The notes beneath the pieces are model-generated. The model saw only the letters and a list, made by a program, of their open reading frames with translations, did no database searches and was not told the DNA's origin. This document shows, one piece after another, positions 57,284-59,885 of a stretch of 64,000 bases of DNA (its first letter is position 1; the number at the start of each line of letters is the position of its first letter). The position numbers and the translations under genes are program-made. The stretch is taken from NCBI GenBank assembly GCA_018716805.1, contig DVJL01000032.1, forward strand, positions 1 through 64,000, written 5' to 3'. The stretch is from Candidatus Faecivicinus avistercoris. GTDB taxonomy: Bacteria > Bacillota > Clostridia > Christensenellales > Aristaeellaceae.

Positions 57284-58015
57284 ATGCAGGTTATCTACGG
57301 ACATCGCGGCGCATCGGGCTATGCGCCGGAAAACACGCTGGAAGCCTTTGAACTCGCGGCGAAGATGGGCGCCTTTGGCGTCGAACTGGACGTGCACGTC
57401 TGCAAGGACGGCGAGCTGATCGTCGCCCACGACGAGACGATCGACCGCGTTTCGGACGGCAGCGGCCTCATCTGCGAGATGACGACCGCCGAGCTGAAGA
57501 AATTCCATTTCAACAAGACGCACCCGGAGTACAAAAACGCCACCGTGCCGACGCTGCGCGAGGTCTACGAGCTGCTCAAGCCCTATGGCCTGCACGTCAA
57601 CGTCGAGTTGAAGAACAGCCGGATCCGCTATCCGCGGCTGGAGGAAAAGTGCGTCGAACTGGCCGCGAAGATGGGCATGTCCGACCGCATCCTCTATTCC
57701 AGCTTCAATCATCACAGCCTGCTCTACCTCAAGGAGCTGGACGCTTCGCTCAAGTGCGGCACGCTGTACGATGCGACGCTCGTCCGCCCGTGGGACTATG
57801 CCCACAGCCTCGGCATGAACGCCATCCATCCGCATTTCTCGGAATTGCAGATCGACGGCGAATGCGAGCGCGCGCATGCGCTGGGCCTCGAGGTCAACCC
57901 GTGGACGGTCAACGAAGAAGAGGACATCCGCGATACCATCCGCGCAGGCGCCGACCGCATCATCACCAACTATCCAGACCGCGCGCTGGCCATCTTGAAA
58001 GAAATGGCCGGTTGA
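57284..58015 (+). CDS. Glycerophosphodiester phosphodiesterase
   Basis: MQVIYGHRGASGYAPENTLEAFELAAKMGAFGVELDVHVCKDGELIVAHDETIDR. Confidence 0.95.
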   Translation: MQVIYGHRGASGYAPENTLEAFELAAKMGAFGVELDVHVCKDGELIVAHDETIDRVSDGSGLICEMTTAELKKFHFNKTHPEYKNATVPTLREVYELLKPYGLHVNVELKNSRIRYPRLEEKCVELAAKMGMSDRILYSSFNHHSLLYLKELDASLKCGTLYDATLVRPWDYAHSLGMNAIHPHFSELQIDGECERAHALGLEVNPWTVNEEEDIRDTIRAGADRIITNYPDRALAILKEMAG

Positions 58016-58022
58016 CGGGCAG

Positions 58023-58410
58023 AATCCGCCTGAAAGGGCGGATTTCAGCTTGTCAAAAAAGCCTTTTTGCCAAGCTGGTGGACGAGGGAGTAAACTCCCC
58101 CGCCAGGTGCCGCGCCTCAAATTTTCAATTTGAGCCGTGGCAGTTTCGCCCAAAGGCGAAACCGCAGAATCCTGTGGATTCTGCGCCTCCTACCACCCCC
58201 TCCAGTTTCCGCTAAAATCCTTCGGATTTCCGGGCGCGGAAACTGCAAGGAAGCGATTTTTGCTCTGGGAAATGGGATTTCCCGACACAAAAATCAGCGC
58301 CCGTTCCCGACGCGCAGGTCGTCGGGAACGATTTTTATGCGAGAGGGCTGCGGCCCTCTCGCGTTCTCCTAGGTTTTTTGACAACCTGAATCCGCCTGAA
58401 AGGGCGGATT
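58023..58410. mobile_element. Candidate MITE-like hairpin-array element with ~38-bp terminal inverted repeats
   Basis: 5' AATCCGCCTGAAAGGGCGGATTTCAGCTTGTCAAAAAA and 3' (reverse complement) AATCCGCCCTTTCAGGCGGATTCAGGTTGTCAAAAAA; about 10 further hairpins between them. Confidence 0.6.
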
Positions 58411-58414
58411 TTTT
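58389..58414 (+). terminator. Terminator-like hairpin at the element's 3' end
   Basis: AATCCGCC-TGAAAG-GGCGGATT followed by TTTT. Confidence 0.65.
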
Positions 58415-58511
58415 GCATGATTTTTGTTGACAGGCCATGTAAACGGGCATAAAATAGGGAGGATGGAATGCCGCAGGTCTTCCATGAAATTTTACAAAGG
58501 AAGCGTTGCTC

Positions 58512-59885
58512 ATGAACAGCATGACGCAGGGACGTCCGCTCCCGCTGATCCTTCGGTTCACACTTCCGCTCCTGCTGGGCAATCTGTTTCAGCAGGCCTA
58601 CAACATGGCCGATGCCGCGATCGTCAGCCGCTATCTCGGCACGAATGCGCTGGCCGCGGTCGGCACGTCGAGCAGCGTCCAGTTTCTGGTCATCGGCTTC
58701 TGCACAGGCGCGTGCTGCGGCTTCGCCATCCCGATTGCGCAGACGTTTGGCGCGGAGGATCACCGCACGATGCGGCGGCTGATCTTTCACGGCATGGCGC
58801 TGACACTCGGCATTGCCGTGCTGCTGACGACGGCCTGTGCGCTGCTCTGCCCGCAGATCCTGCACCTGCTCTCCACCTCGGCGGAGATCTTCGACGACGC
58901 CTACGCCTACCTGCTCATCATCTTTCTGGGCATTCCGTTTACGCTTCTGTACAACCTGCTGTCCGCGATCCTGCGCGCCGTGGGCGACAGCCGCACGCCG
59001 TTTCTGTTTCTGGCGCTGTCGGCGTTTTTGAACATCATTCTCGACCTGCTGGCCGTGGTCGTGTTCGGCATGGGCGTGGCCGGCGCGGCGCTGGCGACCA
59101 TCGCTTCGCAGGCGGTCAGCGGCGTGCTCTGCTGGCGCTACATCTCGCGCCACGTTCCGGTATTGTGGTTCGGCCGCGAGAGCATGAAGTTTGACGTCAC
59201 GATGACGAAGCTGATGCTCAAAATGGGCCTCCCGATGGGCCTGCAATCGTCCATCACCGCCATCGGCAGCATGGTCATGCAGTCGGCGAACAACAACCTG
59301 GGCAGCGTCTACACTTCCGGCTTTACCGCAGGGATGCGCATCAAACAGCTGGCGATGTGCCCCTTCGACGCGCTCGCGACGGCGGTTTCGACCTTCTGCG
59401 GCCAGAACCTCGGCGCGCGCCATCCCGACCGCATCCGGCAGGGCATCCGGCTGGGGATCGCCGTCGGCGTGATCTACGGCGTGTTTGCAGGACTTCTGCT
59501 GATCTTTGCCGGACGGCCGCTCTCCATGATCTTCATCTCTGGCAGCGCCGCCGACGCGCCGGTGCTCGACGCGGCGACGCAGTACCTGCGCGCGATGGGC
59601 TTTTTCTACTGGGTGCTGGGCATCCTGAGCGTGGCGCGCATGGCGACGCAGGGTCTGGGCTTCGCCGGATTGGCGATCTTCTCCGGCGTCGTGGAAATGG
59701 CCGCGCGCATGATCGTCAGCCTAGTCTTCGTGCCGGTGTTCGGCTACGACGCCATCTGCTTTACCGACCAGTCCGCGTGGGTTTCGGCGTCTTTGTACAT
59801 CGCGCCGGTCTGCGCATGGTGCGTGCGAAAGATCACCCGCCGGCTCGCACAGCCGGACGCCACTGCGGTTTCGGAGCAGGCATAG
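58512..59885 (+). CDS. MATE family efflux transporter
   Basis: LILRFTLPLLLGNLFQQAYNMADAAIVSRYLGTNALAAVGTSSSVQFLV; 12-TM pattern. Confidence 0.94.
   Translation: MNSMTQGRPLPLILRFTLPLLLGNLFQQAYNMADAAIVSRYLGTNALAAVGTSSSVQFLVIGFCTGACCGFAIPIAQTFGAEDHRTMRRLIFHGMALTLGIAVLLTTACALLCPQILHLLSTSAEIFDDAYAYLLIIFLGIPFTLLYNLLSAILRAVGDSRTPFLFLALSAFLNIILDLLAVVVFGMGVAGAALATIASQAVSGVLCWRYISRHVPVLWFGRESMKFDVTMTKLMLKMGLPMGLQSSITAIGSMVMQSANNNLGSVYTSGFTAGMRIKQLAMCPFDALATAVSTFCGQNLGARHPDRIRQGIRLGIAVGVIYGVFAGLLLIFAGRPLSMIFISGSAADAPVLDAATQYLRAMGFFYWVLGILSVARMATQGLGFAGLAIFSGVVEMAARMIVSLVFVPVFGYDAICFTDQSAWVSASLYIAPVCAWCVRKITRRLAQPDATAVSEQA

Follow-up and report, generated by a model that had tools for sequence, protein, structure and literature searches.

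The window, a 64,000-nucleotide stretch of contig DVJL01000032.1 of Candidatus Faecivicinus avistercoris, carries a near-unbroken run of hairpins at positions 58022-58411, between two open reading frames (Table 1). The original prediction had described a dense hairpin array at about 58023-58410, and we verified the coordinates of the sequence as well as the hairpins that it listed. We folded positions 58015-58420 and compared the energies with those of shuffled sequences, yielding -210 kcal/mol for the plus strand, where the shuffles averaged -138.7 (z of -11.0), and a z of -12.0 for the minus strand, with 0 shuffles matching the native folding energy. A mechanical search for repeats recovered the predicted exact 24-bp direct repeat (58022-58045 and 58388-58411), together with inverted arms at 58044-58060 and 58374-58390. 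The element proper spans positions ~58046-58388 (~343 bp) and ends in the 15-bp inverted repeats CAGCTTGTCAAAAAA and TTTTTTGACAACCTG. Searching the array against Rfam returned sub-threshold matches only, with 0 families at gathering score. Judged on its sequence, the right copy of the direct repeat with its T tract may plausibly still act as an intrinsic terminator.

Table 1. Features of the window copy and its neighbouring genes (positions in the window).
Feature	Position	Strand	Description
Upstream ORF	57284..58015	+	243 aa; GDPD-like according to the original prediction only; its stop codon lies 6 nt upstream of the left target-site copy
Left target-site duplication copy	58022..58045	+	terminator-like hairpin GAATCCGCCTGAAAGGGCGGATTT; exact 24-bp direct repeat
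Left terminal inverted repeat	58046..58060	+	CAGCTTGTCAAAAAA
Left-end hairpin	58046..58077	+	inverted repeat, then its own near-complement
Hairpin 1	58078..58105	+	GTGGACGAGGGAG/CTCCCCCGCCA
Domain of hairpins 2-4	58106..58199	+	closed by GGT/GCC pairing
Variable hairpin	58203..58245	+	slot with at least 3 unrelated stem sequences across copies
3' module	58245..58366	+	three hairpins, modelled as R1
Right terminal inverted repeat	58374..58388	+	TTTTTTGACAACCTG; last G common to the target copy
Right target-site duplication copy	58388..58411	+	followed by the T tract TTTTTTG
Downstream ORF	~58512-59885	+	MATE-like according to the original prediction only

A DNA search of the genome of origin (G000, 2.83 Mb in 149 contigs) returned dozens of copies. 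Together with searches using covariance models of the 3' module (R1) and the 5' module (R2), all run with scoring limits, this yielded ~60-70 distinct places, counted by hand from the search tables with reverse-strand shadow matches excluded. Because many contigs break off inside copies, the true copy number is probably higher; the assembly, a draft, is 97% complete and may lack some repeated elements. Across all 151 genomes searched, R1 had matches in 48, including the genome of origin, with up to ~20 per genome among the matches listed, and nearly all of the positive genomes fall within the bacterial family of the window. These numbers agree with the non-autonomous, dispersed, MITE-like nature that had been proposed. 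The nearest named relatives of the neighbouring GDPD gene are uncultured Eubacteriales MAGs, Candidatus Avichristensenella and Limiplasma (gut Clostridia).

Several variants were found among the copies. Six of them (L026, L027, L100, L105, L106 and L107) make up a second sub-family, which has its own type of 3' part (GCAAATCCGCCGCGCATGTCGCCGGATTTGATTTTAC) and agrees with the main family in its ends and in the way its target is duplicated. Another sub-variant (L010, L013, L028, L099, L103 and L104) has an extra hairpin block inside the 3' module, located in the loop of a TCCCGACG/CGTCGGGA-type stem as though another palindrome cluster had entered there. In one copy, a hairpin is interrupted by an apparently frame-shifted IS5-like transposase gene (L020:1663-3050, contig C126), and what appears to be the other junction of this insertion, at the same hairpin position, lies at the end of contig C54 (L122:1-250, at the start of the contig sequence). 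Two loci, L023 (contig C133) and L028 (start of contig C28), share the same left flank although their versions of the element differ, pointing to a strain mixture or a misassembly in the draft genome.

To describe how the hairpins vary, we aligned copies of each module and recorded the pairs with changes on both sides. In alignments fitted to the structure, the 5' set including a few reverse-strand matches, such changes were seen in 27 of 39 pairs of the 3' module (61 copies) and 32 of 47 pairs of the 5' module (36 copies). No shuffle equalled these values and slid controls were far lower, so that the stems covary across copies as had been anticipated; in unfitted alignments, only 5 and 2 pairs changed on both sides. 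The pairing of GATTTTTG with CAAAAATC (helix 1) was present in nearly all copies in the consensus, and the left-end hairpin of the window copy recurs in L008, L089, L131 and L337. The mutually exclusive folds predicted for AAAAATC could form, judging by the sequence. The slot at 58203-58245 holds unrelated stems in other copies with the hairpin form kept, the domain of hairpins 2-4 is missing as a block in many copies, and the inner hairpins are inverted in L014 relative to the rest (loop AAATTTTCAATTT versus AAATTGAAAATTT). Alignments of the body show indels that are not multiples of three, along with stem compensation, and no conserved frame. Mismatched pairs were also sorted by type, resulting in 45 G-T versus 33 A-C cells in the 3' module (14 versus 17 columns) and 41 versus 19 cells in the 5' module. 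A strand preference is not clear overall, and for this reason we take the covariation to reflect conserved palindromes and not to prove an RNA function.

We inspected the position of the copies relative to genes. In about 20 sense-oriented copies, the first bases (GTGGAC) lie 0-11 nt beyond the stop codon of the upstream gene, a count that is approximate given that genes were called with a simple codon-usage script and some stops were read by eye; only a few copies in the opposite orientation adjoin a start codon. These stop-adjacent copies have neither the left repeat nor the left palindrome; on their right side, a terminator-like hairpin is present in several. Copies without the left inverted repeat consistently begin at the first base of hairpin 1 (58078). 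L025 and L022 lie so near the upstream gene that its stop codon apparently arises within the element or spans its boundary (GGGTGA and TA|G, respectively). We considered insertion via a distinct end (GTGGAC) for this class and dropped it. Loss of the left hairpins after insertion would be the more economical explanation on sequence grounds, because L018, L091 and L015 keep the duplication while their left repeat is missing or altered. An alternative, by analogy with IS1272, would be insertion at the base of a hairpin without duplication.

The placement of the stop-adjacent class is compatible with, though no proof of, a role as multi-hairpin terminator or mRNA-stability element, which the original prediction had raised. 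A broader account would make the array first of all a functional RNA or 3'-UTR regulator under selection, terminating transcripts or stabilising mRNA 3' ends, with dispersal merely its means of spread. The strong covariation speaks for it, as do the stop-adjacent sense copies with few opposite ones near start codons and the excess of G-T over A-C mismatches in the 5' module, which is expected if the plus-strand RNA folds. However, the minus strand folds equally well, the mismatches of the 3' module favour no RNA strand, the covariation alignment was fitted to the structure, and no Rfam family reached its gathering score; copies duplicated on both sides occur in either orientation, and the inverted inner hairpins of L014 indicate DNA-level events. 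On balance we find this account unlikely. We give slightly more room, still as a minor possibility, to a secondary use of the array, in which it would have been taken over as part of 3'-UTRs by way of the ~20 stop-adjacent sense copies, after loss of their left inverted repeat and left hairpin copy: an IS1182-type MITE would then supply a structured 3' end to many mRNAs, and its palindromes could form a landing pad for a palindrome-choosing transposase.

The outer hairpins were studied by reading the flanks of 70 loci of the genome of origin. Copies with intact ends have a constant order, consisting of a locus-specific palindrome, the CAGnnTGTCAAAAAA end, the array, the TTTTTTGACAnnCTG end and the same palindrome again. 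The sequence of the outer hairpin is different at every copy, and it is therefore not part of the element. Of the 47 copies with both flanks, 10 have an exact direct repeat, 15-30 bp long and in every case located on a palindrome, as compared to a longest repeat of 12 bp (and 0 of 367 pairings with at least 14 bp) when left flanks were combined with right flanks taken from different copies. The duplication is absent from the remaining 37, as a result of a missing left end in some and perhaps of age in others. Two contig ends (C145 and C71) appear to be the two halves of one more duplicated copy, and copies duplicated on both sides occur in both orientations.

Matching sites were located in another genome of the same genus (G001) by a search with concatenated flanks. 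One copy of the palindrome was present at three of them (L114/L304, GCAAATACTTTGCGTCA; L018/L300, ACGGGCGTTCGnTGAACGCCCGTT; L107/L301, GGGCAACCC..GGGTTGCCC), and one diverged hairpin at the sites matching L008 and L027. We discarded L105 as empty-site evidence, G001 and G003 being devoid of a hairpin at the matching place, and the window copy was uninformative in this respect, as the nearest GDPD relatives (L189-L197) have another downstream neighbour. The palindrome-bearing outer ends, predicted to be terminal inverted repeats, are thus a duplicated target hairpin that differs per copy and is single in G001. As for the ~38-bp inverted termini, their inner 15 bp (CAGnnTGTCAAAAAA, noted in the prediction as the adjoining TTGTCAAAAAA/TTTTTTGACAA) are the inverted repeats of the element and their outer palindrome is target DNA.

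The same pattern was repeated in five copies from four other genera. In G018 (L279/L328), the hairpin 3' of groEL (AAAGGGAACCGCTCCGGCGGTTCCCTTT) is duplicated over 28 bp on either side of a hairpin-rich element that measures 205 bp and ends in CAGACTGTCGAAAA and TTTTTTGACGAACTG; in several other relatives, groEL is followed by a single hairpin. The other duplicated palindromes measure 24 bp in L131 (G056), 27 bp in L155 (G087, same genus as G018), at least 14 bp in L152 (G028) and ~42 bp in L337 (G057). From these sizes, we conclude that the duplication length follows the palindrome. The window copy is flanked by a whole terminator-like stem-loop duplicated directly, and other copies likewise by other stem-loops, with palindromic targets and shared ends. 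Recombination or local duplication of a terminator, without any transposition, could also yield flanking direct repeats, given that terminators can duplicate and that some copies have diverged or missing duplicates. We consider this very improbable, since the palindrome differs per locus yet always adjoins CAGnnTGTC/GACAnnCTG ends, occurs only once at the corresponding sites of another species, and is arranged likewise around the autonomous IS described below. Least probable of all is a REP/BIME-like repeat spread by a Y1 (RAYT) transposase, which would share with the element its extragenic clusters of palindromes in many copies but differs by the 15-bp inverted repeats and long target duplications found here, neither of which is, to our knowledge, among the features of REPs as generally described.

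In order to detect a transposase with the same ends, we searched the genome of origin for IS1182-type transposases (PF13751) and found none in this draft of 149 contigs, although genes of this kind are frequently missing from draft assemblies; other places with the 15-bp repeat in this genome were degenerate copies or single end hairpins, with no transposase nearby. A candidate for the autonomous partner that the prediction had called for was found in another genus of the same bacterial family (L164 in G027), in the form of an intact IS of ~1.55 kb with the ends CAGCCTGTCAAAAAA and TTCTTTGACAGGCTG. Its left end is identical to the left repeat of the window copy at 14 of 15 bases, an exact palindromic 19-bp duplication (AACTGCCCAAGGGCAGTAA) lies on both sides, and its protein matches NF033551 (IS1182, NCBIfam) above the cut-off with an E-value of 1e-122. 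Unlike the hairpin array, it is autonomous and was seen in one copy; it was the only candidate partner with matching ends. Two sets of candidates were discarded: four copies of IS1182-type genes in G029 (L319-L322), whose common segment lacks both the ends described here and a palindromic duplication, and IS of G002 and G082, whose ends are GGGGCTGTCTCAAAA-type repeats, another set.

We conclude that positions 58046-58388 are very probably a copy of a high-copy, non-autonomous IS1182-type MITE with a hairpin-array body that duplicates its target stem-loop. The sequence is multi-copy, its copies share their ends and its stems covary. The element has no transposase of its own, and it has terminal inverted repeats, a target-site duplication with an empty site, and multi-copy dispersal; the ends common to an autonomous IS1182-family element of another genus and the palindromic target point to a derivation from IS1182. 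As in other bacterial MITEs, it is short, gene-less, intergenic and multi-copy, with terminal inverted repeats and target duplications; it differs from them in duplicating an entire stem-loop, the length of which varies, instead of a short target of fixed length, and in having a modular hairpin array as its body. According to the mechanism that we propose, an IS1182-type transposase acting in trans would move the element and recognise the target palindrome as a cruciform. Cuts at the feet of the stem-loop, and joining there, would duplicate the whole stem-loop; with a palindrome left on each side, the element could sit at gene ends with the hairpin not removed. Hairpin modules of the array would be gained or lost as blocks via replication errors at palindromes.

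The closest known system is IS1272 (IS1182 family), with TnSha1 of staphylococci (PMC4923244, PMC5678879). IS1272 inserts at terminator stem-loops, which are removed with no target duplication (PMC4923244, PMC5678879), and some IS1182 members target palindromes according to a review, as cited in both papers. The two systems would share the IS1182 DDE transposase family (here through L164), and in both, the targets are stem-loops at gene ends, terminators among them, that lack a consensus in primary sequence. They also have in common that insertion takes place at the base of the hairpin and that there are variant left ends with extra repeat sequence (known as IS1272L). In contrast to the deletion or replacement of the stem-loop by IS1272 and TnSha1, the whole stem-loop is duplicated here in copies with both ends intact, and the element is a high-copy ~340-bp hairpin array without a transposase gene. 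In one variant of a published model, put forward as a proposal only, joining takes place on both strands at the 5' feet of the hairpin, which is duplicated in full (PMC5678879); the family described here fits this stem-loop-duplicating variant. A literature search, with most subscription journals outside its coverage, returned no paper describing an IS1182-type MITE with terminator duplication.

Group IIC introns also insert beside intrinsic terminators; here, by contrast, there is no intron RNA or reverse transcriptase, and the palindromic target is duplicated. Stem-loop deletion has been published for IS1272 and duplication had only been proposed until now; the copies reported here are natural examples of it. 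Within a single gut lineage, there are many independent natural insertions with the complete hairpin duplicated, along with single-copy sites in a related species, and the proposed cuts at the cruciform feet become directly testable. The length of the target duplication is set by the structure of the target and not by a fixed stagger. The element also accounts for a conspicuous repeat, rich in hairpins, at which assemblies break in the bacterial family of the window.
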